NCBI GenBank assembly: GCA_010405405.1
Contig: MU004235.1
Coordinates: 1,936,157-2,000,156 of the forward strand
From: Microthyrium microscopicum
Taxonomy: Eukaryota > Ascomycota > Dothideomycetes > Microthyriales > Microthyriaceae
Direction: 5' to 3'
Length of the DNA stretch: 64,000 bases
Program-made: the position numbers and the translations under genes
Notes under the pieces: generated by a model
The model's database searches: none
The model's input: only the letters and a program-made list of their open reading frames with translations
Told to the model about the DNA's origin: nothing
Shown here: in pieces, positions 15,804 through 64,000 of the stretch
How the letters are laid out: every line of letters starts with the position of its first letter
How positions within the stretch are numbered: position 1 is the stretch's first letter

Positions 15804-16137
15804 GATTCTCCTATGGAGCCTGACTGTGAAGTTTGAGATGTCAACGATAGTTGAGGGGAAGAAGAAAGTTATGGAGTCGTCAGTGGCTGAGGCTTTATAG
15901 AGGAGGCCCAATCTTAAGTGAGGTTTGGACAACGCTAACTCAAAAGTTCAGTTGATGCTTTCCTGAATCGTGACCATTGAGGGAATGCGCTACCGTTCTG
16001 GGCGAGTATACTCCATGACTCAGTTTTTGAGGTCTTTCCTAATATGATGATGTCGAGCGACGAGATTGCTTAATTCCGGAGGATGAGTCTGGCGGTGTAG
16101 AGTGTTAGAGTAGTGCTAATTTTTTGACTTTTGATAA

Positions 16138-43659: not shown

Positions 43660-43881
43660 TGCGATATGTCACGTTACAATTCAGGTTTTTTCTAGCCAAA
43701 GCGGACAAAACTCAGTGTAGCCTGGGGCGCCGAATAGCGCGGGACATCTATCAGTTCTCAATGGCAACTCTCTAGGTAGCGCATCTGCTCTTTCTGATTT
43801 ACATCGTGACGAATATTCGCAAGAACACACGGTCGAAACCTCGGCCCTTGATATCGATTGTTGTTGTCCATTATGCAAGCC
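43660..43881 (-). pseudogene. Possible relic of a CPLCQ-family gene
   Basis: Reading down from 43731, the bases TGTCCGCTTTG then GCTAGAAAAA resemble the family's CPLCQEK codons with small changes (CPLWLEK here). TGTAACGTGACATATCGCAAAGGCTGG-like bases follow and could be a degenerate C-x3-CPYLK. An upstream MDNNN start at 43874 is followed by about 37 open codons. The match is short and the call is tentative. If real, it would be the leftmost remnant of the array. Confidence 0.25.
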
Positions 43882-44367
43882 TGAGGTGTAAATCAGACAA
43901 CCTAAGGTAAGTTAGGTAACGGCTGGTTGTCTCTGCGAGAATATCCTTCGACGTTTTGAAGTTTGTCCGCCCAAATGTTGCAGTGTAGTCGCAGTACAGC
44001 ATTCAAGGTGTCAAGGGAGACCATCAATTAGGTTATATTAGTGAAAGTCTTTGCGTAGATACGGAATGGCGTTGATTTGCTCAAAACATCGTTAGTTCAT
44101 TGCTTCTAAGATCAAAATCTACTTCGATAAGAAATAGAAAGAACTAGGCGGCTAGATTAGGTATCTAGATACCTGTTAGCAGCAAGCCTTAACGTGGGGC
44201 ACACTTGACGCAATCAAATAGTAAATAGTATTTCCAGTTTCTAGTCGTCATACTGATGGTTCGGGATGAAGACTAACTTAACGACAATATGATGCCACAT
44301 CTTCTGCGATTAACATAAGCGTTGTCTGCAGGGACTAAGTATAGAAACGAAGCTACTCACTCAATCT

Positions 44368-44810
44368 CTACTTCTGGCTTCCCTGCTCCTCCTTTCTCTT
44401 CTTTTCTGCCGCTCTCAGATATGGACAGAGTAAGCTACAAAAGCTTTCCTGGCATAGCGGGCAATCTGGAATTTGTTAACGTAGAGTTTCAAAAAAATAT
44501 GTTTAGGCCAAAAAGCGCTGAAATGAGTAGACAGTGCCAACTCAAGGTATTCTTACCTCGAGGCCAGGGTTTGGGTGCTTGCGGATCTATGAGCAGAGTT
44601 AGACAAGTCGCCTCATGCTGTTATAAGCTTCAGTTTACCGTCCAATTTGAAAGCCTCCTCCCAGTTCATAGATCTTAGCCCGTCTAACATGAGCTCCAGA
44701 AGCGTTGGCCCAGTGTGAGCGTCCGGCGCTTCGGAACATTGCGGCTGGACTCCAGCAGCGACTTGAATAACTTGGTACCCGGATCGAGGGTTGTTCACGT
44801 TTCCGCTCAT
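44368..44810 (-). CDS. CPLCQ-module family protein, copy 1 (99 aa, with a 30-nt micro-exon)
   Basis: Exons 44810-44639, 44586-44557 (30 nt) and 44465-44368, phase 1 at both joins. The product ends in WPRDCPLCQESFC, SLLCPYLR and a charged Lys/Glu tail. It differs from all other copies: a second intron falls inside the conserved module, between WPR and the CPLCQ codons, leaving a micro-exon that encodes DPQAPKPWPR. The 57-residue body is short and contains QCSEAP, echoing the CS[EA]xP motif seen in copies 2, 9, 10, 12 and 15. An in-frame ATG at 44891 would add 27 residues. The function is unknown and no signal peptide is seen. Confidence 0.7.
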
Positions 44811-45399
44811 CTTGCAAGGAACTGATGGACTAAATTTGAACTTGAAAGTTTGAAGTTGTGGATGGGCCAGAGGTGAGTAAGTTTGCGTCAATAGATTGGA
44901 GACGCGAGTGTTTATGTGTGGTAGTGAGCGAGAGAAGTTTTGGGGTAGATGATCAAGAGCGGATTCGAGGTTATTGTCACTGCGTTAAATTTATAGGTGA
45001 CGATCAAACTACGCTAAGCTTCTTCTGAGTATAGCTCAGAGAAGAAGTCATTTGTCGAGGCTTCTATTCATCAAGAAAAGAAAGAACGATTTGACGTTAG
45101 TAAGGGCCAAAGTAGTAGGTAGAAGGTAGTATTTTGAGTGACAACTGCATGTACATTGGATGGAACCACAACAATAGTATAGAACCCAACCACTTTTGCT
45201 ATCGCTACTTTTTGATTTGCTTACTTGCCTTCAAGCTTGGATACATGGAATTACATTATCTGTCTCGACCCAAGGAACAATCCCCGACGCCACAATTCAG
45301 TCGACTTCGATTGTAACAAGCGATGAGTAACGTAGACGGCAAGGAGTTCAGAACGCACTTTCTCTATCCCTTCTCTGGCTCTTCCCCTGTCTCTTCCTC

Positions 45400-45754
45400 T
45401 GGCACAAAGCTGGGCCACGACATATAGGTGTGGAGTTATATTTGAGGAACAATAGAGTAGCTAACGCATTGTGCCTAGCTCGCTTACAAGGCAAACGCGT
45501 CGCGTCAGACCACCCTATATACGCTCTTGGGCTAGTGGCTGTTGAATCGGTTTGGCATTTCGTCTCTCAGGCGGATCATATTGGATGGTGATCCATTCGC
45601 CATTGCGTTGAGTAGATACAACGATGGTCAGACTTTTGTGGAAATTGTGGAGACGTTGTTTGCGAGACGCGATTTCTGCCCCTGCTCTCGCAACACAGCA
45701 CTCGCAGGGTGGTGGGGAGAAGATGGCCATTGGCAAACAGATGGAAGCAGGTAG
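45400..45754 (-). pseudogene. Possible decayed CPLCQ-family copy
   Basis: An open frame at 45515-45736 carries TIVVSTQRNGEWITIQYDPP, faintly like the 'DR..P..VNTxGY' segment of copies 7, 8 and 10. Downstream near 45420, TGGCCCAG then CTTTGTGCCAGAGGAA could be a deleted module. Position and strand fit the array spacing, but the evidence is weak. Confidence 0.2.
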
Positions 45755-46214
45755 TAGAGTAATGAGGTTTGCAGATGAATGTTTGCAGAGTTGAGAGATC
45801 TGAGAGGTTTGAGCGACTTGGAAGGTTTGGGAGGTTTGGGAGGTCTAAGCCCGGATTGCTTTGTACTGCTATGCTATGCCACTTTGATGAAGGGTCAATA
45901 AGTGAAATATCGGAAGAGCAGGTGCTCAAACTTGAAAGTGAACACCGTAAATGTGAAAAGACAGAGGTTGGGAATCGCAGCTTTTAAAGTCATGAATGGG
46001 GAAAGGGGCGAGATGCCGTTAAGATACGGGCACGATTAATGGGCTGCGATATCGCCACCTTGAAAGAGGAGTTAAGGTTACAGAGACATCGTTTTCAAAT
46101 TTGGGCGTAAGTGACTAGACAATTCGAGCTCAGTCGGAAATGAGGTGATGGTGCAATATCAACAGGTTCGGGGTCTTTCGCACCACCTACATCAAGCAGA
46201 TCACGATTGAGCTA

Positions 46215-46705
46215 TTAATTCTTCTCCCCATCATCTTCTACGAAATGCTGCTTGGCCTGCGGATCTTGAACCTCCTCTTGACCTTGAGCCTCCCCTTGAT
46301 CTTGAACCGCCTTCTGGTCTTGACTTGCCTCCTGGTCCTGGATGTCCTTCTGGCGCTTTATTGAGGCCTTCATGTATGGACACAACAAATGACAGGCTCT
46401 TTCTTGACAGAGAGGACAATCACGAGGCCATGGCTTCGGTGCTTTTGGCTCTATGCGATTATCAGTCTCACCATGACATAAGGAAGTGAGGTCTACATAC
46501 CCTGTGGTGAGTCATCTTGCATTTGGGTCTCTTCGTACGCCGAACAGTATCGAAATAGCCAGGACGATGAGCCGGTATTTGGAGGAGCATGGTAGGCAAT
46601 GCAGCTTGACTCGAGATAACTCATCTGCAACATTAGGTCTTGTAGGCTAGTAGCGTGTGAGGCCGGTTCCGCTGCTGGTACGTAATTTGTGGAGGACGAC
46701 GACAT
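46215..46705 (-). CDS. CPLCQ-module family protein, copy 2 (146 aa)
   Basis: Exons 46705-46501 and 46450-46215. The 50-nt phase-1 intron runs GTATGT to GCATAG. Exon 1 encodes a Ser/Ala-rich body ending YCSAYEETQMQDDSPQ. Exon 2 encodes EPKAPKPWPRDC, PLCQERACHLLCPYM and a long Gln/Asp/Glu-rich tail with short repeats (QDQEASQDQKAVQDQG). Start 46705 follows the first Met before the Ser run; an upstream in-frame Met at 46798 is possible. No targeting signal. A 16-bp minisatellite lies just upstream (46891-46980). Confidence 0.7.
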
Positions 46706-46890
46706 GATTCTTCCAAAGAAGCCTTTGCGGGTTGCAGCTTTGAAGTGGTCGCGGGCGATGCAATTTTTCTGCAAGGAATCTGAGAGAAATGAACGCACGT
46801 AATGGTAAGTAAAACAAGTTGCAAAGTGGATGTTAAAGACTTTGAACGAGGAGAAGCTCTGTTGTTTTAAGCTCGATTGAATCTATACTG

Positions 46891-46980
46891 TGGTGAAATA
46901 TGCTGGTAGTGAAATTTGCTGGTGGTGAAATATGCTGGTAGTGAAATATGCTGGTGGTGAAATATGCTGGTGGTGAAATG
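46891..46980. repeat. 16-bp minisatellite, about 5.5 copies
   Basis: Consensus tgctggtggtgaaata, with tgctggtagtgaaata and one tttgctgg variant. Located in the upstream region of copy 2, not in a coding frame. Confidence 0.85.
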
Positions 46981-48045
46981 TCAGACTGCACCGGGTCTAA
47001 CTTCTTCAAGAAACCTGAGGTACAACTAAGTTTCAGGATGGAGGTGTCGTTTTAACATATCACATAGGCCGAACTCGTTAAGGAGCAACAGCTTCGCCAT
47101 GCCCATCTCTACTCATCATCCTATATATGTGTTCTTAAATGTTGCATTTATCGGCATTACCTGGGCCGCTCTATGACGACTTTAGATGGGGACACCAGCA
47201 GCTGCAGTATCGCTTTTGGCCGAGCAGGCACCCACGATGCCATGTCTTAGACTGCTCTGCCTCTACATATCTCTCAATGCATTTGTAGCACGCAAAGCGT
47301 CAGGATGACCGTACTCTTTGGCTCTATTTATGAGAAAACCAAATTTTCGGACTGCTCATCCGGGGCAATAGAACATTGGGCGCTATGGGGAGAAGTACTT
47401 CATGACCAGAATTGAGAGGATCATTGCATCATTGGTGGTACCGCGCCCTTGAGACAATCAAGCAGGAAATTGGCGTCGCTTTTTACGCTCATCTCAAATT
47501 CGATTACGGCAACCTGTGAGCAAAAGTTGATTGCAAGGCTGTGAATGTTCTTCAGGGCGCTCAGACTCGTGCCAGAAGAACTCACACACTCCTCGCTGGC
47601 CATTTGTACGCTCGGTCGGACTGGCAGGGACGTCGCGAGCTTGGCCAATAGGAAATAGATGGTTCGTGAGTATATAATAGACGCTTCCGAACATGCCGGC
47701 TATCTGTTTCAAAAGTCTGTCGAGAAACAGGAAGGTATTAGGTTTCTGATGTAGGTTCTGGCGCAGTTGTACTAGAGGCTAGGCACGTTACATAGCAAGA
47801 TTCAGTATGAGACGGGTATTGAAGCAATTGATTATCAACAATGACCATAGCTGGTCTCACAAAAGGCCGTAACCAAAGATCCGACGGCACTTGAAATTCC
47901 AACAGCAGACAAGAAAAATGTGGCTCCTCTGGACTTTGCTGCTCTGCTGCTTTGCTGCGCTAAGAAACGACTGTGTTTGCCAGAGCCTAAGAATACCTCA
48001 AAAGCAAACGCTCTGATCACGAGAAGCATGAAAACATCATCTCTT

Positions 48046-48507
48046 CAATATTTCCATTTGCCCTCGTTGAAAGCCTTCAGGTATGGGCAGCGAAGGTCAC
48101 AGAACTTTTCCTGACAAAGCGGGCATCCACGAGGCTATGGCTTTGCCTCGGATTTTGTCTTCGTCTGCGTCTCTGTTGGTTGGTTGTTAGCACCTCACGT
48201 GGAAAGGAGATTTCGTTGCCTTACCGTCTTCTTTGGGTGGCTCATTATATAGAAGAGCACCAAAACAGATGAATCGTGTGTTGGGACAAACAGCTGGAGC
48301 TTGTACTAGAGGTCGGAACGCTAATATGTCATACCTGCCGTTCGTCCACGAAGGAGGCCAACTTCGATAAACAATAGTGCTAGTACCGTAGACATCGCAT
48401 ACAATAAAGGCCCTTGGTGGGTTTAAGCCCGCACGAGGAGCCGTCAGGTGCAAAATCATTCTTGTGCGACGGGGCGTAAGGGGGAAGGAGAGATTGTTAT
48501 GGGACAT
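48046..48507 (-). pseudogene. CPLCQ-family copy 3, stop codon inside the module
   Basis: Exons 48507-48225 and 48172-48046, with a phase-1 intron GTAAGG...CAACAG. The last exon reads SEAKP, then TAG (48137-48135) where every other copy has TGG for Trp, then PRGCPLCQEKFCDLRCPYL and a short tail ending KWKY. A single G-to-A change explains the stop, so the loss is recent. The body is Pro/Arg-rich (APRAGLNPPRAF, YRSWPPSWTNGRYD). The FCDLRCP variant places it with copies 5 and 11 as a sub-family. Confidence 0.72.
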
Positions 48508-48836
48508 TGCTGGAGGCAGATCGATTTCCGTATTTTGTGTCTAAACAGGTTCTAGACGGATGTATAACTGATGAGCAACAGTATGGAGAAATGGGGTAAT
48601 GGAAACTGAATAGTACGGGGGAGCTCAATAGTCAAGACAAGGTTGGGGTTCGACCGGTGGCCAAACAAACACAGCTAACATTAAATAGAAAGAACGACAG
48701 CTATGGGAGACAGCCCAACTTCTGGCTCTAAATCTAAAGCTCCTTCTATAATTTTCAGTCCTGGTCCAGAGATGCTCGAGCGCACAATTATTTCATCAGA
48801 ACGCTAATCACAGCCACAACACCATTCAGCTCCGAC

Positions 48837-49204
48837 CTATGTCTGCCAGATCTCCTCCTTCCACTCTTCTTCCTGGGCCTGCTCCTCAGCCTTATTCTTG
48901 TTGGCCGTCTTCAACTACGGGCACAGCAAGTGGCAATAACGGTCTGGCATAAAGGACAATCACGAGGCCAGGGCTTGCCCTCTTGGATACAGTCAGCACA
49001 GGTAGGTATGTAAGTAGTTAAACAAGACTTCTCTATTTTCACACCTTTCTTCTCGACCTCTTTGATCTCCTCGGCAGCTGGCATAAGCTCAGAGAGCTCA
49101 CAAAGTCCTCCTGCCTGCAAAGGTATCGAAGACCAAGCCCACACGCTAGCGATATTGACCTCTTGGCCATCGTCATATTGTGCGCGCCTGAGTTTTGTTG
49201 ACAT
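48837..49204 (-). pseudogene. CPLCQ-family copy 4, frameshifted module
   Basis: Exon 1 (49204-49045) encodes 53 residues with ELSELMPAAEEIKEVEKK. The phase-1 intron GTGTGA...CCAAG leads to EGKPWPRDCPLCQ. One G is missing after CPLCQ, so the frame leaves DRYCHLLCP. In the corrected register the Tyr of CPYL is also TAG. The charged tail (KTANKNKAEEQAQEEEW) is still recognisable. Two independent lesions mark it as a pseudogene, although exon 1 and the splice sites are intact. Confidence 0.7.
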
Positions 49205-49767
49205 AGAAACGCCCCGTAAAGCACATGATGCATATATTTGCTCTCAGGTCCAGCGCAAGTCCAAGGCTACTTCAATGCTGTAACGAGTGTATGGGGCAGA
49301 CATATGTTGTGGAGGGTCTGGAGGTGGTCGAATATGTGGCGGTGGAAAGAAAGGTGCAGCACAGGGCGCGAAGCCTCGCGGCAGGAAGCTGCCGTTCATT
49401 TTTGTCGAGGAATAGTCTGATTAATAATGACAGCTTTTATCCCTGACGCGGAATGCTGAAGGAAGTGGTGAGCTTTTGAACGGGAACGTACGTGCGAAGG
49501 CAGGAAGGTGATAGTACGTATTTCGAAGAGCGGGTCGTTGTGAAGAATAGCAATATGTAAGTAGGTGCTATGGGTAAATGGCTGGAAGGAGTTGAAAAAC
49601 ATTCCGGTGGCAGCTACATTCCTCTTTCTGTGTCCAAGTGCAAGTGCAAGTGAAATGGCAGGAGCGGCCATAAATCTGGAAAATCCTTTGTAGCCGTTGA
49701 CGAGATGTATCGATTTCGCTCTCATTTTCTTCGCCAGAGACTCGCAACCGGTCCATCGTTCGCAGAC

Positions 49768-50375
49768 TCACTTCTTATCCTTCTTTCCATTATCTGCCTT
49801 TAGATATGGGCAGCGGAGGTCGCAGAAACGGTCTTGACAGAGTGGACACCCTCGTGGCCAAATCTCTATCTCTTTCTTTGGCTCTTCTGTAGATCGTTAG
49901 TCCGGAAATATTAGAACAGTCGAACTCGCGTACCAAGCCTCACCACATCGAGTGGCAGATCCGGCCAAGCTATCATATAAGACCATTCTGGCCACTCTGC
50001 AGAGCATTGAAACCAGCGTGGAAGATCATAGGCACAACAAAGTGGAAATCCCACATGATCGTAAGCAGTTCGACCTGGGAAACCATTTGGATCTGTCCAC
50101 CTAAAGATGGTAATATCTCGCAATAGGTTGCCATTTGAATTGTCGTACATAGCCTCTTTCAACCGCTTTGCTCGGGCCTGTATTTGTTGCAGCTGCTTGG
50201 TTGTAGGAGTATAAGGTCTCGGTAGGTTATGGGTATAACTGTCATATGGAAGACCAGCATAGTTACAGAAATCGTCTACCTGACCGACAGCGAGGTTCCA
50301 GGCCATGCGAATTTGGTTTTCATTCATGCTAGATTCTGGCTGGTCCTTATTTTGCCTTTTATCAGTGGTATTCAT
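49768..50375 (-). CDS. CPLCQ-module family protein, copy 5 (186 aa)
   Basis: Exons 50375-49934 and 49886-49768, joined by a phase-1 intron GTACGC...CTACAG. The body carries the family's helical segment (YTPTTKQLQQIQARAKRLKE), related to copies 7 and 8. A Trp-rich stretch follows (DLPRWFQCSAEWPEWSYMI). Exon 2 encodes EEPKKEIEIWPRGC, PLCQDRFCDLRCPYL and a short Lys-rich tail. EIEIW and FCDLRCP are shared with copy 11. An in-frame ATG at 50420 would add 15 mostly hydrophobic residues. No signal peptide is called with the chosen start. The function is unknown. Confidence 0.72.
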
Positions 50376-50639
50376 CTCGAAAGAGGAGGATGGAAGTTGA
50401 TGAAGAAAAAAGAACTTCAAGCTGTAGAAATTTATTGATAGGAACTACCGTCCTTGCAAGCGGGTATTTGAGTTTGCTCGGAGGAAGGTTTCAAAAACTT
50501 TGAAAGACTGAACAAGCTAAGCAGAAAGTAAGTGAGTGAAAAGTGGGAAAAAGGTGACTTATTGCAAGGTGCTGTCAAGATAATTGAAGGTGAGGCGCAA
50601 TGAAAGCTTCTTTGATTCTTATGTCTAAGGTTTACTTGT

Positions 50640-51334
50640 TTCCTCCGGTTTTGAGCCGCTTCATCTCATCTTCCTGCCTTTTCGAGGTCTTTAGTTACGA
50701 ACGCAGAAAATAGCGGAAATGGACCTGACACAGCGGGCAATTTCGAGGCCATGGCTTCTCTTGCCCATCTGGAAATACATTAGCAAGTTGACTTGGATGC
50801 GAAATACGTTTCGCATACACTTGTCTTCTTTCTGATCAACATCCTCGAGATACCAATGATATATATTTGGCCGTCCATGTCGCTCTGCGAATTTGCGCGA
50901 GGAAGGCTGAGAATCGAGGGTAAGGAGACAACGATGCTCCGAGTCGTAAACTCGTCCCAAGCTCGCCACCAAATTCATCATTTTGGTCCGCCTAGTAAAG
51001 ATTACTCCAGCTAACAGGTAGATGTCCGGGGCATCTCCTCGCCCGCTTCTGTCTACTGCCACACTTAGGTTTGCATGGTCCGAAGCTCTTGTAGAGTAGG
51101 GACATGAGAAGGGCCAAATTAGTAGGCAACAGGATCGTCAGGAAGGTCAATGTCATGAACGAGCTGTGCCATTTGGTGTGTAGCGCGAAGCCATGCAGAG
51201 CGGATCAGCTCAACTAGTTCGGGACAGGTCGTATTATGGAAGACGATGGGACTGCTATTCTTTTCAAGTGGTGGATATGGAGCGTGGCGGCAAGGGTAGA
51301 TACGTCTGTAAGGATCAGTGATGATTGTAGGCAT
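50640..51334 (-). pseudogene. CPLCQ-family copy 6, decayed module
   Basis: The last exon still reads GQEKPWPRNCPLCQ, but the next two Cys are Arg (VHFRYFLR) and the Tyr of CPYL is a TAA stop. A Lys-rich tail remains in frame beyond it. Upstream, frames at 50691-51062 and 51119-51334 (MPTIITDPYRRIYPCRHAPY) appear to be parts of the body, with no clean splice between them. Loss of the second Cys pair makes the product non-functional if that pair binds metal. Confidence 0.6.
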
Positions 51335-51726
51335 TTTGGTTCCGGGAACTGGATTGAGATGGATATACTTCGAGGAGGGGGTTTTCCGGCAGTTGAAGGA
51401 AAAGATGGATAGATTTGGAAAAAGGGTTCGCAGTTGGAGGAAAGTGTTGACAGATAGAGCAGCGTGTTGATGAAGTTTATGTTGTCTCGAGTAGGCCACG
51501 GACAAAAAAGGAGCAAAAGAGGTCGCGGTTGAGGAATCCGCATCACGGTAGGCATGAGTAGACGATGAGATATCAGTGTACAAGAGATTCGAGGTAAAAC
51601 AAGCGACACGAGAACTTCCAAAGCTCGATCTGGATTTGAGTTGGTTTTATTCTAACACAATGTGACCTCTAGACAATCAACCCTGGCCATGACAGATTCC
51701 CAGAGGAAAGAAGCCCATAACGTGGC

Positions 51727-52359: not shown

Positions 52360-52616
52360 GATGAACGAAGGGATGGATGCGACTGGCACGAACGTGAGGT
52401 ATGAAAGTCAATTCAACGTCGTGGTTGAATGAACTTGCTTCGGTCAGGAAGTTGTCGAAGGTAAGGATCAAGAATTGCAAAAGTCATGAACGAAATAACA
52501 GAGCAAGGTATAGGGATTACTCCGGGTGAAATAGCTCGGAGTGGTGGAGATACGCCACTTATTCTACCTAAACAGGAACCTGAAAAGACACCTACCAACT
52601 TCTAGTCCCCGTAATA

Positions 52617-53278
52617 TCACGATAGGATCCGATCCGAGATGTCGCCCTCATTTAAAGTATGTTCCAGGTGCCTCTGTGGATCTCGTTCGAGCACCCTTAG
52701 CTTTTCCTTCTCAGCCTTCTTCAGATAAGGACACAAGATGTGACAGGGACTCGTCTGGCATAATGGACAGTTTCGAGGCCACGGCTTATCGACATCTCCT
52801 AGAAAGTTTTATATTTTCCGAGCATGAAGCTGGGCTGAACATACCACTTGACATGGATCGAGGAAACACGTTGTGCTTGAGTTCACTGATTCGTGCTGCT
52901 GGAGGAAGGCCATCGAAGCAAACCAGGTGGAGCGTCAGAGCATCTATATCCTCTCGTGTTGACGTGCAAGATTGGATGACCCATTCGATCAAACACTGTC
53001 AGACCAGATTGGCCAGAGGAGATGTTTAGATGGAAAGGTTCATCAGGGCGTTGAGCGGTATTTGCATCCCGCAATCGCTTCACGCGACGCTGCATGGAGC
53101 GCAAGTGTTTGATTGTAGGCGTGGGCGCAGTATTGTGGTTATAAATGACAGTGCCGCCGATGGTCGCGAAGATTTCGGTCAGCTCACGTACTGCGGCATC
53201 GTACATATCCTGAATTTGCGCGGCAGTGAGTTGTGGAGATGTCTCTTCAGTTTCTTGCCCTTGATTTTTGGCTTCCAT
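52617..53278 (-). pseudogene. CPLCQ-family copy 8, single frameshift in the body
   Basis: Close relative of copy 7. Exon 1 from 53278 reads MEAKNQGQETEE, then TPTIKHLRSMQRRVKRLRD and LTVFDRMGHPILHVNTRGY with RCSD. Near 52920 the frame must shift by one base to reach the rest (LPPAARISELKHNV) and the GTATGT donor at 52844. Exon 2 (52798-52617) is intact: DKPWPRNC, PLCQTSPCHILCPYL and a charged tail. The single indel suggests a young pseudogene or an assembly error. Confidence 0.65.
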
Positions 53279-53718
53279 TTTGGCTTGAGGATTGGTTGCG
53301 GGTATTGAAGAGGCGAACATTACAATTTGGAGCAATGCACATGTGAGTAGTCCGAACATGTTTTATACTAGTACAAGTTTATTGCCGCCTCGAGAGTTTC
53401 ACATAGCTTGAACAGTAGGTTACGGGGACAAGAGACTGCATAGACTCTAGAGAACAGGTTGCGTAGAAAAGGCTTAGCTAGGCGATTATAAAGCTAATAA
53501 TAGGTAAAAACGTAGCTTAAGGGTAGTCGAGGTTAAGGCATACAAAGTGAAGAGATGAATTCTCTACCTTGCGCTAATTTCAACAAGATCCGCTAACGCC
53601 ATCCGTAACCTCGACATCGAGTCCCTAGCTTCTCAAAATATAACCTCGAAGGCGCATAACTAAGCCTCAATGGCGAGTAGAACTAACGAAATATCTTTCT
53701 GTTACAAAAGGGTACAAG

Positions 53719-54374
53719 TTAAAGTCTCTGCCGCTTCACTTGTCGTTCCTCTTCGGCTCTTCTCAAGTACGGGCACAATAAGGAGCAGAAGCTCGTCTGA
53801 CAAAGGGGACAATCCCGCGGCCATGGCTTTTGCTCTGCTTTTGTCTAAGAGTCAGCATGATGTTGATAACAGTGCACACTTGTTGTGATATACCTTTTTC
53901 TTCCGGCAATACTGTTTCAGGTACTTCAAGAGATTCTGCGGGTTCGGGATTCTGATCGTGGATTGGGTATTCCGAGCAACGGATTACTCCTTGTCGCAAC
54001 AATCTCCGGCGGTATCGTGCGCGCGCTGTACGGATATTGGTCTGTATCCGGTGTTCCTCAGAGTTGCGGCTATTCATTCGCCTTTGGAATGCTTCAGACT
54101 GCTCTCGAATTTGCTTGTATATTCCATCAAGTCGGCTGTGCAACCGTTCTAAAAGCTCCGGTTGGCCGGCGCCTCCATTTATTGCGAGATGAATATCCGC
54201 TCTGAGGAAGAGTTCTTTCATTAGTTCGCGGTTGTTGGCATGATCTAAATTCTGTTGAGTTCGAATGGTAGCCAGTCTTGCCAGGAGATGGGGAGGTGGC
54301 GCAAAAGGTGGCGCAAAAGGTGGCGCAAAAGGTGGCGCAAAAGGTGGCGCAGCTTGGCCGTTGTTGTTACTCAT
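53719..54374 (-). CDS. CPLCQ-module family protein, copy 9 (199 aa, PPFA repeats)
   Basis: Exons 54374-53894 and 53837-53719, with a phase-1 intron GTATAT to ACAAAAG. The N-terminus contains four tandem Pro-Pro-Phe-Ala units, encoded by a 12-bp minisatellite. A helical, Arg-rich body follows (ELLERLHSRLDGIYKQIRE, ARARYRRRLLRQG) and then RCSEYP. Exon 2 encodes AEQKPWPRDC, PLCQTSFCSLLCPYL and RRAEEERQVKRQRL. An alternative acceptor (CTCTTAG) 9 nt upstream would put the module out of frame, so I prefer AAAAG. No targeting signal. The function is unknown. Confidence 0.7.
54297..54346. repeat. 12-bp minisatellite (gcaaaaggtggc), four units
   Basis: Four perfect head-to-tail units inside exon 1 of copy 9, read on the minus strand as Pro-Pro-Phe-Ala. 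Perfect identity suggests recent expansion and possible length variation between strains. Confidence 0.9.
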
Positions 54375-54769: not shown

Positions 54770-55381
54770 CTACTCACCCGGCTTCATTTGCGCTCTAAGG
54801 TAAGGGCACAAGGGGTGGCAGAAGCTTACCTGGCAAAGCGGACATCCACGAGGCCATTGTCGCTCCACCGCCACCGTGTCTCCTGAGGAGTTGTTAGCAC
54901 AACTATACCCTGCAGTATTGAAAGCATAGATACCTTCAGCGTCTATTCCTATCCGAGCAATAGCACGAGTCGTATGTTTCGGCCGCTCTGAACAACGAGC
55001 TGCACGATTTCGATTGCCTCGTACCGGGGCACGTAATTGTTGGTTCAATGCAGTTATTTGTCGCAAGTTGGCTCTCAGTTGGTCGAGCTCTGCCCTTATC
55101 TCATCGGTGTCCCCCGCTGTGTCTTCGGTTCTCGCGTGAGTAGTTCGGATGTTCGCGGGCGTTGTGATTAGACGCGCTGAGTTTGCCTGGGCGTGCGCTC
55201 GGGGGGGAGTTATTCGTGAGTTGTCGGACTGAGAAAGCTGGTGTAGTTGATGCTCAAACTGCGTCAAATCGTGGGAGACTGAGCGAGAACCTGTCAGCAC
55301 CAGTGCTTTGTGGTCTTCAAATTCTGATTCTATCAAATTGTCGTTGCGAAGTGTCAGCTTGGAAATAATGTAACGGAACAT
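54770..55381 (-). CDS. CPLCQ-module family protein, copy 10 (186 aa)
   Basis: Exons 55381-54934 and 54882-54770. The phase-1 intron (GTATCT, a GTGCTAAC branch site, CTCAG) is open in frame if retained. The body has a heptad-like helix (DEIRAELDQLRANLRQITAL) and RCSERP. The family's DR..P..NTxGYxC segment (GIDAEGIYAFNTAGYSCAN) lies partly within the retained-intron reading. That raises the possibility that the intron derives from, or is optionally read as, coding sequence. Exon 2 encodes VERQWPRGC, PLCQVSFCHPLCPYL and a short tail. The function is unknown. Confidence 0.7.
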   Translation of the reverse strand: MFRYIISKLTLRNDNLIESEFEDHKALVLTGSRSVSHDLTQFEHQLHQLSQSDNSRITPPRAHAQANSARLITTPANIRTTHARTEDTAGDTDEIRAELDQLRANLRQITALNQQLRAPVRGNRNRAARCSERPKHTTRAIARIGIDAEGIYAFNTAGYSCANNSSGDTVAVERQWPRGCPLCQVSFCHPLCPYLRAQMKPGE

Positions 55382-55677
55382 GGCTGTAAGACGTGGATGC
55401 TCGTGGATAATAAGTGGGAATTTGGATGATCAAGGAGGAATTGGGTTTGGAGTGGGAGACAAATATTCCAGTGTTGTGGTACCGGTGTGTTGGTGGAAAA
55501 TGATGCTGTGAAATTGGCTACCTGTGACCTAATCCATGCAGGGGTGTTGAGGAAGTTGTCAAGATGAGGAAAGAGCGAAAGTCACCAAGCTTACTGAGGT
55601 CGTTGTACAATCTTCTATTTCGATCTATTAAGCAGCAATATGTATCGGCAGATTTTTCTGGAAAACAGAAAGTCGAT

Positions 55678-56983
55678 CTACTGCAAGTCCATTAAGCTCA
55701 TTTTCACTTGCAGAGCCTCCTTCTCCTCAGGCAAGGATTTGTCGGCAGAAGAGTGCTCCTGAGTTGAACCTTCTCCCTCGCCCTTAGATTCATCTCCCAA
55801 TGAAAGATCTCGCAAGTCCAAGATTGTATCGCCACAGGAAGCTTCCTCGCTATCAAGACTGTTCTGTACAGAAGATTCATGCTTGTTGAGTGTGTGCTCC
55901 CGAATGGTGTCGTCGTCGTCGTCAGAAAGGTCGTTTCGCGCATTTGACGCAGCTTTTTCGCACATCACTTTGGCAATGAAGCTCTCTAGAAACCCGATTT
56001 TCCACGGACAGGCACTAGAAAGAGCTTCCTTGGCTATCTTGGCCTTCTTGCTTAATTTGTCCTTCTCCATCAGCTCGGCGTTTTTGGTCAGCTCGGACTT
56101 CTTGATTAACTCAGTCTCTTTTTCTTTGTTCGCACGCTTCAAGCAAGGACATCGCAAGTCGCAGAACCGCTCTTGGCACAACGGACAGCCTCGAGGCCAG
56201 ATTTCGATCTTTGACGTCTCCTTTTCCTCCTCGTCATGGTGGTTCTCTACGTAGGTTTAGTTATTGAAAAGTTTGTAAGAATTAGCCAGGCTTACCAGTT
56301 TGAGATGGCGATGGCGATTCATACACGGGCATCCCGGCGACAATACCAGCGAAATTACCAGCGACATAATCAGCGATCGCAGGATTCCAAGAACACCAGA
56401 GGCCCGCACGCTGTAGCCTAAGGACCATGCGAGGTGTTGTATTCTCATCCACATAATCTAGCACTGCAGCCAAAAGTGGGCCAGGAGGGGGAAGCCATGG
56501 ATTTGGGTGGAGGGCATGGAAGTTTGCATGCACTTGTCGCCGCTGAGCAATGCGGTCGAAGCCAAGAATGCCTTCAAATGCACTCAATTGAACCCTAAGA
56601 GGATATCTGCGGTTGGTCTGCTCTTCAAGTTGTCGGCGCTGGGCTTCCGAGCCCCTAGCAAGATGGTACAAAAACGCAGCTGTACTCATTGTCTTGGTCA
56701 AAGATTTGACTTCCTGATCCGGATCACCATATCGCCGGAAGTCGTCATAATAGCGAGAGCCTAGATAAGCTTTGTTTCGATAAGTCCCCATCCGGGATAC
56801 GGCAGAAGGAGGTGGACGATGAAGCTCTGGTATTTTGGCGCGGGGATCTGCAAATCGCTGGCGCATGTTATAGGGATCGTTGAGAGAAATTTCCAGCCGA
56901 TTGAGTATTGTATTATAGTAGTAGGTTTTGAGTTGGCGCTCGAACCACCCACATTCAGCGTTGTAGTACCATTTCTTCATCAT
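55678..56983 (-). CDS. CPLCQ-module family protein, copy 11, longest member (418 aa)
   Basis: Exons 56983-56296 and 56246-55678, joined by a phase-1 intron GTAAGC...ACGTAG. The 229-residue body is Tyr/Trp/Arg-rich (KKWYYNAECGWFERQLKTYY, GSRYYDDFRRYGDPDQEV). It shares no obvious segment with copies 7-8. The module reads KIEIWPRGC, PLCQERFCDLRC with CPCL in place of CPYL, and is followed by a 150-residue acidic/Lys/Ser tail (DLSDDDDDTIREH, SLGDESKGEGEG). The very long tail and new body show how freely the module has been combined. The function is unknown. Confidence 0.72.
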
Positions 56984-57627
56984 GAATGATAGTCAACAAT
57001 TCAGCTTGCAGTGGCGATATAGTACGACAGTCGCGACTCTGAAGAGGTAAATAGGAGGATACGACGGATGGATGTTGGATTGTGGTCAAGTTATAGGTTT
57101 AAGATCTCGTGGAGCTTTAAAGGCAAAAGATTCCAACATTCGCTGGTAGAGGTGATAGTCAAAATACAAAAGGCGACTAGTTTATTTCACTCTTTTTGAG
57201 GTCGTTAAAGTGACCAATCTAACCTCAAATTCCTGTTCGTGAGGTCATGGCTAATATGTCTTATCTATCTGCAAATGGGGTAAGACAAAGCGAGAATCGG
57301 GCTCATGAATGCTCGAAATTCAAGAAATAGATCGCATCCTCCGCAGAAATCATAATTGATAAGCAGATATGCAAATGGACTCCTTCCCAAAGGACTTGTT
57401 AGCAGATTGCAGTTCACGCTGGCCGTCACACTCAATATAATCATGATGTTTGTTTTGCCAAAGTATTTCATTTTATACCCATCGTGAAATTGAAAACATG
57501 TCTGGCTCTCAGGCGCAAGTACTATCTGAATTCAAGCTTTTGGTCGTCACCCCTTGGGCCTTCGCTTCCTCTAATATTAGACTGTCTCCTCTTCTTTCAA
57601 CAGAAAGGTGCCGATTCAAGTCGCATC

Positions 57628-58298
57628 TCAGTGAGAACCGGAGCCGTCATCAGCTGTATCCCGCTTTCGCTTCAAGCTCTTCTCGGATGCTCTCAAGTAA
57701 GGGCAGAGTAGACTACAAAATTTAGTCTGACAGAGCGGACAACCACGAGGCCATGCTGCTTCTGGCTTCTCCACTGGCAAGAGTCAGCATTATATAACAC
57801 CACCGTTATCATGTGGAGCTTTCACATACCTTTAGGTTCGGGTTCTGCTGGTGATCTATCGAAAGCCCGGTTGCATACTCTAGGGCGCGGATACGCGGAA
57901 CAACGATGAGCAGGCAAGACATGTCGTGCTCGATGATGAAGACGAACGAGACGAGCTGCTATCGGAAGTTGAAGGGCCGGGCGTTGGCGGCCAGGAGGTC
58001 CTCGACGGGAGCCCGTGCGTGTCGCGATCGGGAGCTGTCGTGGACGCAGCTGGTCGTGAATCATAGGTTGTTGAATCTTTGGAGGCGGAGCCTGCTGCAT
58101 ATCGGCGGATGGCTGTGCTGCTGGTGGCGGAGGAGGCTGCATCAAGGGGTTTTGGTTTTGGGATTGCGCGTTATACCAACGCCAAGTGGAAGACCAATGC
58201 ACGGGGTGTACTGGATCAGTACTCGTGTATACTGGAATTGGTTGACCTTGTGCGTGGTTATTGGAGCTATTAGTATTGTTTCCGTCGCTGTTGTTCAT
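57628..58298 (-). CDS. CPLCQ-module family protein, copy 12 (204 aa, Asn/Pro-rich body)
   Basis: Exons 58298-57830 and 57773-57628, with a phase-1 intron GTATGT...TGCCAG. The body is low complexity: an Asn/Ser run at the N-terminus, a Pro/Gln run (LMQPPPPPAAQPSADMQQ), then an Arg/Pro/His-rich stretch and RCSAYP. Exon 2 encodes VEKPEAAWPRGC, PLCQTKFCSLLCPYL and a short basic tail (EKSLKRKRD). The basic, disordered body suggests nucleic-acid or protein binding in the nucleus, as an inference only. Confidence 0.7.
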
Positions 58299-58806
58299 CG
58301 CTACAGTGTTGTGTCGCTACAACACAGGCAGGACTGAGATGCAACACACCAGGATCTGTTCGGAGACGATCTGATCGCCGTAGAACCTGATCGAGTGACT
58401 AATATGATGCGTCAAGAATCTCAGAAGGAGCAATTTAGACAATGATGCGGATGGGTCGTGTAGAATCAGGTTATGATACAGACGATGAAGCTAGGATTGT
58501 GATTTGGAGGTTCTTGAGGAGAGTACAAGTAAGAGAGTCGCATGGACAGCTGAAGTATAGAGATAAGCCACAGCCTTGATGTAGCAGTGACCTTATGTTT
58601 GAGGTGAAAATCAAAGCGCCTTTCTGATATAAGTCTAATCAGTTATCCAGATCCAACACCTCAAACTTCCTGCATTCGTCCACAGTTCTTCTGCGCGCCT
58701 TCAAATAGAGTTACAATAGTGCCAACATGGTTGTAGCCGCGGAAGAACAAGAAGTGGCCTTGAAGCAACAACGGATGGAGTCTAACCCGCAGAGAATTTC
58801 TGTCAT

Positions 58807-59316
58807 TTAGACATCCTCTGCCTGTTTCTTTTCCTTCTCCGCTGCCTTCAGGTAAGGGCACATTAGATGGCAGTATTTGTCCTGGCATAACGGGCAGTTT
58901 CGAGGCCATGGCTTGTCAACTGTTGCATCTGACCGCTTGTATCAACATAGACATCTTTAATACTCGAGTCTAAAGTACATACCCTTCAGTTCTGGAACCT
59001 CCTCTGCTGCTGTCACTATCCTACTCTGGAACATGTCGTAAAAGGAGCAAGGAAGAGTTATCTGGCCAGCCCGAACGCGTGCAATAATTTGCCAAAATTC
59101 GGGAGTGGTTGGACGGCGATAGCCTGTCGCGGTAACATACGCCTCTTCAGACAAATAAAACTGGAGGTCAAAGACTTCCCAGTACAGCAGTTGAATATCA
59201 TCCGGCGAGAAACCGGTGGGAGGTGGCCAAACTCCTTCGAACTTTTTTCGGATACCTCCTATGGCGACGTAGACAGGTTGGCTACGGCGATCATTGATGC
59301 TGCTAGTGCGTTGCAT
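58807..59316 (-). CDS. CPLCQ-module family protein, copy 13 (151 aa)
   Basis: Exons 59316-58983 and 58928-58807, with a phase-1 intron GTATGT...GGTCAG. The body of 111 residues is compact and mixed (KKFEGVWPPPTGFSPDDIQ, YWEVFDLQFYLSEEAY, TTPEFWQIIARVRAGQI). It lacks low complexity and looks like a folded domain. Exon 2 encodes ATVDKPWPRNC, PLCQDKYCHLMCPYL and KAAEKEKKQAEDV. The function is unknown. Confidence 0.73.
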
Positions 59317-60056
59317 TGTGTCGACTGATAGCAGAGACAGGCTCGTGTATTTTTGATTACAAGGTTAGGATGCTGTGAGAATTACGACTGGTGTGAGCCT
59401 ATTGGTTTATGATCGCAATGGAGCGGAAGCAGATCCTGATACAAAGTTTCGTTCGGGTTTTATAAGAGAAACCATCACACATCTTACAGCACCAGTTACA
59501 GCTTCCTGTATCGCTTAGTTTTGACATAAAGAGCAAATGGTCACGCCAATTCTGTTTCTAGCTATATCTTTAAAGGGAGCCATATCTTCAATAAGTTACA
59601 AGTGTCTTACTCAAATATATTATCAGATCATTCTTACATTTCGCAGTGATGACCTTTGTGGGCCAGGGGCCAATAGACAGAGGGAGAGAGAGATGCAGTA
59701 GGATATGTTCTTCAGCGTTGGGACGATTCATTCTTCACCGCTGATGTAACTGCGAGCATCGTCATGATTTTGCGAGATATGCGTTCTTAACTTTCTGCAT
59801 CGCCTGGTTTGCTTTCTTGGTCGCCGTTGTACAGGGGCCTACTTTAGTATATAACCTGATGTAAGTGTGGAATCGATATTTAAGATCACAAGACTTTTGC
59901 CATAACTGCATCTTGGCAAGATGAAAGTGATAAGAGTCAATGATAATGACAAGCTATATTGGGTCAGTAAGAGAGCATCAGCTCAAGATGTGGCGAATAT
60001 CTGTCTTGTATGTACTGAGAAGGCATAGTGCTCCACTACTGACCCATCCTCTGCGC
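59317..60056. other. Spacer within the CPLCQ array
   Basis: About 740 nt between copies 13 and 14. No module-like sequence is found on either strand. Should contain the promoter of copy 13. Confidence 0.4.
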
Positions 60057-60611
60057 TATAGTTTCTTCTTTTCCCCTTCGAAGTTTCCCGTTTTCCCCTT
60101 TCTCTTCAAAAGGCGGGCTTGACGAAGGTACACAGAAGCAGCAATGGTGATCTTCACAAAGGGTTCACCTGGCTGCGGCTTTAACTCCTCCACTCTAGCA
60201 CTTCTGTCACTATGGACTTGCCTTCACGACAAATGTAGATACCTATCCTTCTTCGTTTGGCTTCATGGTCGGGGGCTCGAGCTTGGGGTTCACTTGGAAA
60301 CTTCCATCTGGTAAAAAGACCCCATATGGCTTGAAAAGCTCCTTTACCAACTGAGACATGCTCGGTGCGTCAGAACATAAGAATGTGCCCACCGGGGGCA
60401 TGCGAAGAGGGGGAATAGGATGAACCCTCGCAGGCAAAGTCTTGCCGGGGTTGTTCTGCATATACACATGTTCGCAGGTGTTCCAGATTACCTGACATAT
60501 TTCAATATGTCTAGGCAGTACTACCCGTAATGGGGCAACCGCTGGTTGCTGAAACCGCTGTTGGTTTTGGCTGGGAGTTTGGCTTGAGTTTTGTGCTGGT
60601 AGAGCCGACAT
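60057..60611 (-). pseudogene. CPLCQ-family copy 14, degenerate module
   Basis: Exon 1 (60611-60243) encodes a Gln/Pro-rich body of 122 residues (SQNQQRFQQPAVAPLRVV, VIWNTCEHVYMQNN) that is fully open. Where the last exon is expected (60182-60123) the sequence reads KPQPGEPFVKITIAASVYLR and is followed by a Lys-rich tail ending EKKKL. KP-P and -VYLR match the borders of the module, but all four Cys are gone. The usual G|GT donor is also altered. It may be a decayed copy or a gene that has lost the module. The correspondence is by eye and tentative. Confidence 0.4.
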
Positions 60612-60673
60612 GTTCGCTGGTGTTGCAGTGTGGTCTGAAAGAGCTTTGCAAGAGATTTGCTCCAGAGACGACT

Positions 60674-60739
60674 GTCAATGTCAGTCCTTGGGTTCGAGAT
60701 GTAAATTGTCAATGTCGGTCCTTGGGTTCGAGATGTAAA
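60674..60739. repeat. Tandem duplication of a 33-bp unit
   Basis: Two nearly identical units (tgtcaatgtcagtccttggg then ttcgagatgtaaat), differing at one base, upstream of copy 14. Confidence 0.85.
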
Positions 60740-61191
60740 TTATATAAAGAACGTCGAGGATGAGATCTATTCTCAAGATGCTAAATACCCGAGTACTGTG
60801 AAGTTACCTACTGAGTTTCAGTGAATAGATATACCAAAAGCGGGTAGGTGGACAGGCTAGAAGAAACTGATGAGTGACCACATGAAGTCACTATTCCCGC
60901 TGGATATTTGGTGCGAAATGTTTGTTACTTTAATATTATAGATGAAGACAACATCTGAGGTAGATGAAATGCTTTGAAGAGAGGTACGTAAGCGCTAAGA
61001 AGGCGTTTCATGACTCTCATTTTTATTCCCGAATCCAGTAACGTTGACAAATGACTCGTGAGATCCTCTCATCAATCCCTTTTGTGTAGCTACCACGCTG
61101 AAGGACATTGACCTCAAACTCTGCGCCGTCTCATTTCTAGCTAGTAGCGACTAAGTATTCAAGTACGTTGCGTCGTTGTTCGAAGGCTCTG

Positions 61192-61579
61192 TTACTTGTG
61201 TTCGTCCTCCTCTTCGTCGACAGGTTCCAGCTCATCAATCTTTCTCTTCAGCTTAGCCTGTCTTTTGCCCTCAGCCTTAAGATACGGACACAGCAAGCTA
61301 CAAAAGCGATCTTGGCACAGAGGGCAACCGCGTGGCCAAGGCTTGTCCTCTAGGAAACATGGTTAGATCAAATTCTAATGCTTAATAGAAGGCAATTGCC
61401 TAGTACGCACCTTTCGGTTTTGATGGAATTTGGGAAAGAGACGGCTCGGGATTTCTGGACATGTCCGAAGGAAGTTCTGAGCAGACAGGGGCACGACGCG
61501 GTCTAACTCGGGCACGACGCCGGCTAACTCTAGGCGGAAGAACGGTACGTTTTCGAGCCGTCAATATAGTAAGGACCAT
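61192..61579 (-). CDS. CPLCQ-module family protein, copy 15 (108 aa)
   Basis: Exons 61579-61411 and 61349-61192, with a phase-1 intron GTGCGT...TCCTAG. The 56-residue body is very Arg-rich, with a short internal duplication (VSRRRARVRPRRAP). VCSELPSD follows and then SLSQIPSKPK. Exon 2 encodes EDKPWPRGC, PLCQDRFCSLLCPYL and a charged tail (KRQAKLKRKIDELEPV, DEEEDEHK). The basic body and acidic tail end are distinctive; nuclear location is possible. The function is unknown. Confidence 0.72.
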
Positions 61580-61969
61580 GTTGCCTGCAGACTGAAGTTT
61601 GGCGACTGAAGTTTGGGCGTATATTGTTGTTGAGGGTGTGAACTTTGCTGTGCAGGGCGGTGAGCTTTATAATCGCAGCTCAATGTGGGAAGCGGAACTT
61701 GGAAAGGCGATGTTCGAGAGATGATGTTGGAGAAGCGAGGTCAAAGACATCAAAGACATCAAGCGCTCCCGTTTATATAAATACTAGGTTGAGCCAATGG
61801 AAGCGGCCCATAATTCAAGTTACAGCAGTAAGCTACCTACCTTCCCGTTAGCATGATTGACGCTCACTGATGCACCTCTTTGGACTTTTATGCCCGCTTA
61901 TTGGCCGACTGGCCCTTCTTTACCTTCACCTGCTTGTTTGACGCCACCTCTTTAATTGTAAAAGCCCGC

Positions 61970-62368
61970 TTATTTGAGGTTTTGCGTTTGATTCCTTTTG
62001 TTGTTCTTTGTCACTGTCGCCTTCTTCTTCTGCTCAGCCCTTAGATATGGGCAGAGCAAATGGCAACAGTGGTCCTGGCAGGGAGGACAGTTTCGCGGCC
62101 ATGGCTAGGCTTAGACTCTGCCTCTGGCTAAACAATGATGAGATGCGATTCATTGACACAGGGACTAGTACTTACTCTCTGGCTCCATGGAGTACGAAGA
62201 TCTTGCCAGAAGTGACTCGGCCCAATCCATAGGCTCTTCAGAACAGAGCGGCACAGGAGGAGGTGGCATTAACCCTGTATTTTGGAAGAGGACAAGGTAG
62301 TTCAAGTGGCTGTTGGCTGAGGTTGTCATATAACTCTGGGGTGTTGAGACATCCTCACAGCTGCTCAT
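61970..62368 (-). pseudogene. CPLCQ-family copy 16, module out of frame
   Basis: Exon 1 from 62368 (MSSCEDVSTPQSYMTTS) has an intact GTAAGT donor. The module segment reads PWPRNCPPCQ (Leu replaced by Pro), then DHCCHLLCPYL and a Lys/Asn tail ending NQTQNLK, at 62105-61970. No acceptor joins the two in frame. Extra bases (TAG) sit just before the module, and the alternative acceptor TTTAG runs into TAA. Four Cys positions persist, so the loss is recent or the splice model is wrong. Confidence 0.55.
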
Positions 62369-62879
62369 GATGGCGAAAATATCGCCTTACCTGTTGTTTA
62401 GTCCAGCGAAAGCTTTTATATAGCTCAGAATAGACAAAAGAAATTGCAAAAGCGAGCAGTCTAGTGATGCTTGGCGATTTGAAGTTTCTACATCTAAAAT
62501 AAAGGTAGACAGAATAGATGGCCCGCTCATTTTGATTGTGATGGAACATCACTCATGGGGATTGGATATTCAGAGACACGATGCACTTGAACATTTCAAA
62601 TTTGACGACTCTAGTTAATGTTATACCCCCTTGGTAGGAATCAAAGGCTCTTCTGTTTTCAACGGACAATGATATCTTATAAGGTACAACGGGTTACGCC
62701 AATTGATTTATACAACGCACCAAGGGCTACCCAGCAATCATTGCCATTCAGTTCTCCACTCAAAGCGTCGTCCCCTTCTGTTTTGATTTCCAGCCCAAAC
62801 ATAATTGATGCCAACAATTCAGACTTCCATCACCCCCAAATCATTGTGTCAGCTCAGTTTTACAGCTGATCATGATGGT

Positions 62880-63140
62880 CTAGTTGTCCTCCACATCCGC
62901 TTGCTGCGTCTCTTCTTCTTTCACCTTCTTTTCCGCTTGTTTCTTTTCATCTTCTCTCTTTTCCTCTTGTTCTTTGTTCTTCTCGTTCGCAAGCTTTTCT
63001 TCCTCCTCTTTCTTCTTGTTCGCCGCTCTGAGGTATGGGCAGAGGAGGTGGCAGTAACGGTCTTGACATAGTGGACAGTTTCGCGGCCAGGGCTTGTCTT
63101 GTCTTGGTGGGCTCTTTTCTTCGCTCCTGGAGGACGACAT
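62880..63140 (-). CDS. CPLCQ-module family protein, copy 17 (86 aa, intronless)
   Basis: Shortest member, in one exon. It has 16 leader residues (SSSRSEEKSPPRQD), then KPWPRNC, PLCQDRYCHLLCPYL and a 45-residue Lys/Glu helix (KKKEEEEKLANEKNKEQEE) ending DVEDN. The intron present in all other copies is absent, so it is essentially module plus tail. That either reduces the family to its minimal unit or reflects loss of the body exon. It is useful as the smallest natural version of the module. Confidence 0.7.
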   Translation of the reverse strand: MSSSRSEEKSPPRQDKPWPRNCPLCQDRYCHLLCPYLRAANKKKEEEEKLANEKNKEQEEKREDEKKQAEKKVKEEETQQADVEDN

Positions 63141-63636
63141 CTTGAGCTTTGCACTGGCTGCTGTGTGTTCGATGTAAAGGTATGGTTGCTATGGACAGGA
63201 AAAGGTAAGTGGCGGAAAAGAGGATAAAAGGCCTTAAAGCTTAGTAACAATTCCGAGTCTGGAACCTTATGCAGCTTTTTCGATAGTTAATCAGGGACTC
63301 GGATTTCAAGAGCGGCAGAGTAATTCCTCCTGTTAAATACATCTGTAGCTCAAGATTCCATTTCCCTTAATTGCTACTTTTGAATACTACCTCTCTCGTG
63401 ACTTGTTCCTTCGCTTGCTATATATCTGTCATAGATCAGGATATTTAGAACATTCAAGGTCAAATCAGGGAGCTCCCTAATATAGAGACTAGAACCTTCA
63501 AAGCGAGAAAGTATAGATATAGAAAATCAGTAAGCATTCAAAGCTAACTTCATCACTTGATTCTGTTTAGCGACCACGGGCTCTACACAATAACTTTCAA
63601 TTTCCATGCAGCAAAGAGTATCTCACATCTCGAACT
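63141..63636. other. Spacer between copies 17 and 18
   Basis: About 500 nt with no module sequence or other recognised feature. Holds the promoter of copy 17. Confidence 0.4.
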
Positions 63637-64000
63637 CTAGGCCTTCTTAGCCTCTTCAGCTGCTGCCTCAACCTCGTTTTCGAGCACAGTCTTCTCCAAC
63701 AAGTCAGTGACTTCTTCCACCTTGGCCTTCTCCTCCAACTGAGCCTTCTTTGCGGCCTTCTTTGCAGCCTTCTTTGCGTACTTCTTTGCCTTCTTCACAT
63801 TCTCCGGTTTCTTCGCATTCTCGGCCTTCAAGTAGGGACACAAGACATGGCAGACCCGATCCTGGCAGAGCGGGCAATTACGCGGCCATGGCTCTATATT
63901 CGCAGGATGATTAGTCTGTGCTTGATTATTCCAGAGGATCATGATTCTTACTTTCGGGGTTGTTCGTGTCTTGAGCATCAATTTGCTCTTCCTCGGACTC
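63637..64000 (-). CDS. CPLCQ-module family protein, copy 18, C-terminal part (runs off right edge)
   Basis: The last exon 63893-63637 and the end of an upstream exon (>64000-63952, acidic ESEEEQIDAQDTNNPE) join across a phase-1 intron GTAAGA...TATAG. The module reads KPWPRNC, PLCQDRVCHVLCPYL. The 60-residue tail has Lys/Ala repeats (KKAKKYAKKAAKKAAKKAQ) and then an acidic helix. The array continues beyond the window. Confidence 0.72.
   Translation of the reverse strand, partial: SPRKSKLMLKTRTTPKVRIMILWNNQAQTNHPANIEPWPRNCPLCQDRVCHVLCPYLKAENAKKPENVKKAKKYAKKAAKKAAKKAQLEEKAKVEEVTDLLEKTVLENEVEAAAEEAKKA

Follow-up and report, generated by a model that had tools for sequence, protein, structure and literature searches.

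A one-strand tandem array of about 25 gene units built round a conserved four-cysteine module in Microthyrium microscopicum

The stretch analysed here (the window) comprises 64,000 nucleotides, positions 1936157–2000156, of contig MU004235.1 of Microthyrium microscopicum, a dothideomycete of the order Microthyriales, and carries a tandem array of genes that share one cysteine module, W-P-R-x-C-P-L-C-Q-x3-C-x3-C-P, in which the cysteines are spaced C-x2-C-x4-C-x3-C. A profile built from 18 modules and run over the six frames of the window and of 29.8 kb to its right gave 24 units with scores above 2 bits, the marginal member at 45,220 counted. Every one of them is on the minus strand, and in window coordinates they extend from 44,401 to 68,649; a 25th, decayed unit at about 60.1 kb was recognised by eye rather than by the profile. 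The total is therefore approximately 25 units on one strand, 20 inside the window and five past its right edge, which the array overshoots by about 4.6 kb, with a median unit-to-unit spacing over the 25 of 976 bp. The original prediction of a one-strand tandem array round an invariant cysteine unit is thus borne out; since the first module lies at 44.4 kb, the part from 43,660, its left bound, to 44,360 adds nothing. Among the units in the window, 15 have modules scoring above 40 bits, three have a broken module (47.2, 48.9 and 50.7 kb) and two are remnants (45.2 and 60.1 kb); three of the 15 high-scoring modules belong to units damaged elsewhere (c08, c16 and c21). Unit numbers run from right to left, from c01 at 68.6 kb to c25 at 44.4 kb, and the units within the window are as follows.

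44368–44810, minus strand: c25, intact-looking; public protein P0006, 99 residues; an extra phase-1 intron lies within the module (WPR^DCPLC)
45220–45282, minus strand: c24, marginal module remnant, 3.7 bits
46215–46705, minus strand: c23, intact-looking; P0010, 146 residues
47174–47248, minus strand: c22, decayed module, 16.2 bits
48045–48140, minus strand: c21, a TAG stop replaces the Trp codon of the module, the rest being well kept, 44.4 bits
48897–49243, minus strand: c20, module divided over two frames
49768–50375, minus strand: c19, intact-looking; has the shared N-terminal domain; merged with c20 in public model P0001
50695–51340, minus strand: c18, damaged, with a stop in the front and a truncated module, 25.3 bits
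51727–52359, minus strand: c17, intact-looking; 193 residues (model made here); has the shared N-terminal domain
52617–53281, minus strand: c16, N-terminal domain, Cys-Ser motif and whole module, with a frame change in between in this assembly
53719–54374, minus strand: c15, intact-looking; the model made here with the 53893–53835 intron fits, one typed variant being unconfirmed by the exact-chain script
54770–55381, minus strand: c14, intact-looking; P0002, 186 residues
55678–56983, minus strand: c13, intact-looking; the longest member, 418 residues (model made here)
57628–58298, minus strand: c12, intact-looking; 204 residues (model made here)
58807–59316, minus strand: c11, intact-looking; 151 residues (model made here)
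60100–60611, minus strand: c10, Cys-Ser front and decayed module, found by eye
61192–61579, minus strand: c09, intact-looking; P0003, 108 residues
61970–62380, minus strand: c08, Cys-Ser front and well-kept module (46.8 bits), with stop codons separating the intron from the module
62880–63140, minus strand: c07, module and tail, neither a front nor a Cys-Ser motif being recognisable; P0009, 86 residues
63637–64000, minus strand: c06, intact-looking; 174 residues (model made here); its start codon, at 64219, lies outside the window

By the tally made here 16 units look intact (c01–c06, c09, c11–c15, c17, c19, c23 and c25) and encode approximately 100–420 residues, c07 is the one unit with no front, and c08, c10, c16, c18, c20, c21, c22 and c24 are damaged.

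All four cysteines are invariant in the 17 complete modules. Mean base entropy in these modules is 0.55 bits at the first codon position, 0.39 bits at the second and 1.34 bits at the third, and the mean proportions of synonymous (pS) and non-synonymous (pN) differences are 0.93 and 0.17. Codon substitution, which would have told against the original prediction had it been random across all copies, is not random in the module, as pS exceeds pN in 136 of 136 pairs. It is clear that the array represents a real protein family and that chance is excluded, because the synonymous sites have reached saturation whereas the amino acids are conserved; for the same reason the copies are old and the module has been under strong purifying selection. 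Homogenisation among neighbours was rejected, module distance being unrelated to position (18 modules; Mantel r −0.05, a value reached by 3407 of 5000 shuffles), as was repeat-induced point mutation (RIP) as the cause of divergence, since the dinucleotide indices of the array are those of its flanks. At the DNA level 67 of 68 self-matches have the module on both sides, and the longest, between c03 and c04, spans 164 bases.

The family appears confined to this locus. In the genome (36.9 Mb in 20 contigs, match counts being lower bounds) the exact DNA pattern of the module has at least 17 matches, all on the reverse strand, and the reversed pattern none; a protein query gave at least 24 matches at E ≤ 10, representing 23 units, all at 1980539–2004808 of the contig that holds the array, and neither search found a copy elsewhere. 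Among 5.8 billion proteins, matches came only from Microthyrium microscopicum or the array's contig, in searches that required shared 5-residue words and similar length and that a distant or longer relative could escape. A profile of eight family members matched ten proteins at E ≤ 1 (1284 candidates), nine of them listed under Microthyrium microscopicum and the tenth being P0009 from the window; the two other searches gave two matches at E ≤ 10 (2 candidates) and six at E ≤ 10 (942 candidates). No Pfam or NCBIfam family exceeded its cut-off for the family open reading frames (ORFs) and proteins scanned, in keeping with the original prediction, which could assign the module to no named domain. 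Searches of solved structures gave no relative of the module or of the set of ten proteins, and chance-level matches only for A3. Viral or prokaryotic relatives were not confirmed, and nothing on the family was found in open-licence papers.

In each intact-looking unit a variable front is followed by a single Cys-Ser motif, by an intron of phase 1 and by the exon that carries the module and a charged tail. All ten public proteins from the profile search, and P0011 as well, are matched by an exact chain of exons in the DNA of this locus, and in the eight public models checked one Cys-Ser lies 26–57 residues ahead of the first module cysteine. The intron ahead of the module is of phase 1 in all nine public models that have one (the first unit of P0001, P0002–P0008 and P0010) and in five exact-chain models made here, and measures 47–61 nt in both sets; c03 and c15, read by hand, agree, which brings the total to 16 of 16 resolved copies. 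P0009 (c07) is intronless. A second phase-1 intron precedes the Cys-Ser exon in the five neighbours c01–c05 (four by exact chain, c03 by hand). Because every resolved intron ahead of the Cys-Ser exon or of the module is of phase 1, the front of one copy could be joined in frame to the end of another, and the locus could be a combinatorial exon array in which the front of one copy is spliced to the module exon of another. The phase agreement and the P0001 model, which runs through the adjacent units c19 and c20, would fit such an arrangement; however, common descent also yields a uniform phase, every unit carries a start and a stop of its own, and the two introns that bridge c19 and c20 in P0001 are of phases 2 and 0, a fusion that may be an annotation artefact. 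Such an exon array is considered extremely improbable.

Intron retention as a design was also rejected, stopless introns of 3n length (c04, c14 and c17) being about as frequent as expected by chance, as estimated by hand. Where c21 has TAG at the module's Trp (48111–48140), an intron of c25 (44466–44556) ends two codons on, after WPR; c21 may be dead or re-spliced. No shared promoter motif was found, 7- to 9-mers occurring no more often upstream of 17 starts than in sequence drawn 30 times at random from the left flank.

Hydropathy averaged over 19 residues revealed no strong membrane stretch except at the upstream start of c16 (1.98), the next values being 1.27 (c13) and 1.14 (c10) and the rest at most 0.82. 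Fungal effectors are often small, fast-evolving proteins encoded in tandem clusters, and the array could be a cluster of secreted, effector-like proteins. Against this, the predicted starts are polar, as judged from hydropathy and by eye with no signal-peptide predictor, the sole strongly hydrophobic one being the upstream ATG of c16, which sits just 3' of a TATA-like element; a secreted cluster is hardly to be expected. The same profiles bear on a selfish family of wtf-like meiotic drivers, which would persist because spores without it are killed. The wtf genes of fission yeast are similar in size to those of the array, and their products are multi-span membrane proteins, whereas the fronts of the array have no strong membrane stretch. 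In copy number and rapid divergence the two families are also alike. The wtf family is reported to be old, diverse and partly decayed (PMC9562144 and PMC7032740), and it resembles the array in being lineage-restricted and fast-diverging with some members damaged. Unlike it, the array forms one tandem locus, and its divergence is saturated without homogenisation, in contrast to the gene conversion discussed for wtf genes. A driver of this kind is very improbable.

The fronts were proposed in the original prediction to differ almost completely between copies; this mostly stands but is slightly too strong, given that the phase-1 intron and the Cys-Ser motif are shared, as is one N-terminal domain in c16, c17 and c19; the original prediction had missed the motif and the domain. 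Comparison of the N-termini gave z above 5 for c16/c17, c16/c19, c17/c19, c03/c04 and c05/c10, the last doubtful. For c16, c17 and c19 the fronts prove homologous: the c16 front retrieved c17 (E 1.2e-10) and c19 (E 0.022) from the genome and the c19 front retrieved c16 (E 0.003), with no genome matches to either outside the array. A fourth bearer, c11, was considered and rejected, its pairwise scores against c16, c17, c19 and c18 being at chance level (z −0.2 to 1.2). For c16/c17, the closest N-terminal pair, the non-synonymous and synonymous substitution rates (dN and dS) are about 0.79 and 1.69 in the fronts, while pN is 0.19 and pS 0.81 in the modules. These front rates point to weak constraint and do not demonstrate positive selection; the fronts evolve faster than the module, yet some constraint remains in this pair.

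The Cys-Ser motif was found in 19 counted N-terminal sequences (18 when the script's rule is applied), where 2.4 were expected. The count is biased upward: the limits of c03, c08 and c10 were set by eye by someone who could see the motif, c07, c20, c21, c22 and c24 were left out, and c18 has no Cys-Ser. A serious alternative is that only the module matters, as a small metal-binding domain present in many redundant copies whose fronts are little constrained and free to drift. A module pN of 0.17 beside saturated pS, fronts that are mostly unalignable, DNA self-matches that fall almost all on the module, the weak codon signal of the first exons, and c07, which has no front, all speak for it. On the other side, dN is still below dS in the c16/c17 fronts, Cys-Ser is kept in the fronts (18/19), and many fronts stay open over 50–230 codons. 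Drift round a lone working module is regarded as unlikely.

A diversifying recognition or incompatibility repertoire had been suggested in the original prediction. The dense family is there, but diversification for recognition or incompatibility is not demonstrated, with dN below dS in c16/c17 and about eight of the 25 units damaged; a recognition repertoire is possible. In its allorecognition or xenorecognition form the fronts would detect self or non-self variants and the cysteine end would trigger or scaffold a common response. Fast fronts, a constant end, many diverged paralogues and damaged copies would all be expected of it, and birth-and-death turnover is reported for fungal NLR genes (PMC10197012); the array shares with het/NLR genes a birth-and-death-like evolution and divergent parts. 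The same source describes het genes as marked by multiallelic polymorphism under balancing selection; the analysis here covered one genome. Pfam scans of family ORFs and proteins gave no match above cut-off to a HET, NLR or other known allorecognition domain, and dN is below dS in the closest front pair; this form is judged unlikely. Quite unlikely, too, is an intracellular recognition repertoire of an undescribed kind, in which about 16 receptors or adaptors with fronts of their own would have a new four-cysteine finger in common, with possible in-frame splicing between copies.

Among described domains, the module comes nearest to the HIT zinc finger (PF04438; Bcd1, Hit1/ZNHIT3, ZNHIT2), with which it shares the core spacing C-P-x-C-x4-C-x3-C and whose second half it resembles. 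Of the Pfam families, zf-HIT alone has matches in more than one of 17 modules (4/17 at E ≤ 10, best E 0.041), and the module profile reached a probability of 88 against HIT, compared with 19 against CCHC knuckles and 0.5 against MYND; the HIT value is still 79 after the four modules reading CSLLC are dropped. The module–HIT profile score of 25.45 was reached by none of 40 full column shuffles (maximum 17.5). According to PMC5460035 (see also PMC9418376), the eight ligands of a HIT finger, CCCC-CCHC, hold two zincs. The module corresponds to four of the eight, for it lacks the initial C-x2-C pair as well as the closing His and Cys: no C-x2-C occurs within 60 residues upstream of it in the eight public models checked, and after the fourth cysteine no His or final Cys follows in the 17 modules, one row having an unrelated Cys two places on. 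Because four HIT ligands are missing, the module was not classed among the HIT fingers, and common descent of the two is not shown by this resemblance.

In the genome's own HIT finger (L012) the open frame likewise begins shortly ahead of the C-P-x-C-x4-C-x3-C core, as in the array; at L012:1400–1600 this Bcd1-like finger is seemingly split by an intron before its second half, near the array's intron place, in a phase that by eye looks different. The module is short and single-metal-sized and starts C-x2-C-x4 like the CCHC zinc knuckle (PF00098; C-x2-C-x4-H-x4-C), but its third ligand is Cys rather than His and its last spacing x3 rather than x4; with C-x2-C-x4-C-x3-C in 17 of 17 complete modules, assignment as a CCHC knuckle was rejected. 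With zf-MYND (PF01753) it shares C-x2-C followed by C-x3-C, but it is spaced differently and has none of the other ligands.

The explanation favoured, tentatively and at somewhat less than an even chance, is a tandem family of intracellular, adaptor-like proteins that evolves by birth and death, the conserved end probably binding metal and serving for docking and the variable fronts contacting targets. A single ancestral gene would have been copied head-to-tail about 25 times at one locus in the Microthyrium microscopicum lineage, and the copies would then have evolved by birth and death. The four module cysteines would bind one metal ion, probably zinc, as a compact finger; the cysteine end would dock to one cellular partner common to the copies, while the variable front of each copy would contact its own target, giving an adaptor-like repertoire. 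Since HIT fingers bind RUVBL2 (PMC5460035), the RuvB-like ATPases Rvb1/Rvb2 may be named as a first, weak candidate for the partner. The adaptor explanation fits the constant cysteine end, the charged tail, the changeable front and the lack of a strong membrane stretch apart from the c16 upstream start. Also in its favour are the single one-strand locus, the constraint on the module with its four invariant cysteines, the shared phase-1 intron and Cys-Ser motif, the homology of the c16, c17 and c19 fronts, and the HIT resemblance.

Several results weigh against this explanation. All zf-HIT matches fall below the Pfam cut-off of 24.7 bits, the best of four modules scanned singly reaching 14.1, and when the cysteines are held fixed 6 of 100 shuffles score as high as the real module–HIT comparison, which means that the likeness lies mainly in cysteine spacing. 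As regards the fronts, only five of the 210 pairs among 21 N-terminal sequences exceed z 5 and 19 exceed z 3, and the expected frame is favoured by codon usage in only 11 of 17 first exons, a weak signal. Furthermore, eight of the 25 units are damaged, and the perfect module of c07, which has no recognisable front, is left unexplained by an adaptor role.

Tandem gene families confined to one lineage are known already, but in this one the conserved end bears no curated name, and the family looks orphan yet old and constrained, with no relative beyond one species in the searches made and with synonymous sites saturated. Should the fronts prove to be specificity parts, the array would represent a fungal recognition system that is new; otherwise it would offer a clean case of how far paralogues can drift round one fixed motif, and a candidate new minimal metal-binding finger.

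The array is flanked on the left by an F-box gene and on the right by an amino-acid transporter, an SLC12-type transporter and Hsp70. At 40000–42000 of the window the GC content falls to 0.40 and the indices are shifted in the direction of RIP (TpA/ApT 1.18, CpA index 0.94), unlike those of the adjoining array. Four minus-strand ORFs at 11377–17043 have similar openings (MRLPAEIRVEIYKLI, MHIPLELRFEIYSYL and the like), which suggests a second small tandem family, possibly F-box or 2EXR-like. At 22478–23979 two adjacent minus-strand ORFs are probably one cellulase gene with an intron; a family scan that covered the first of them identified it as a piece of glycosyl hydrolase family 7.

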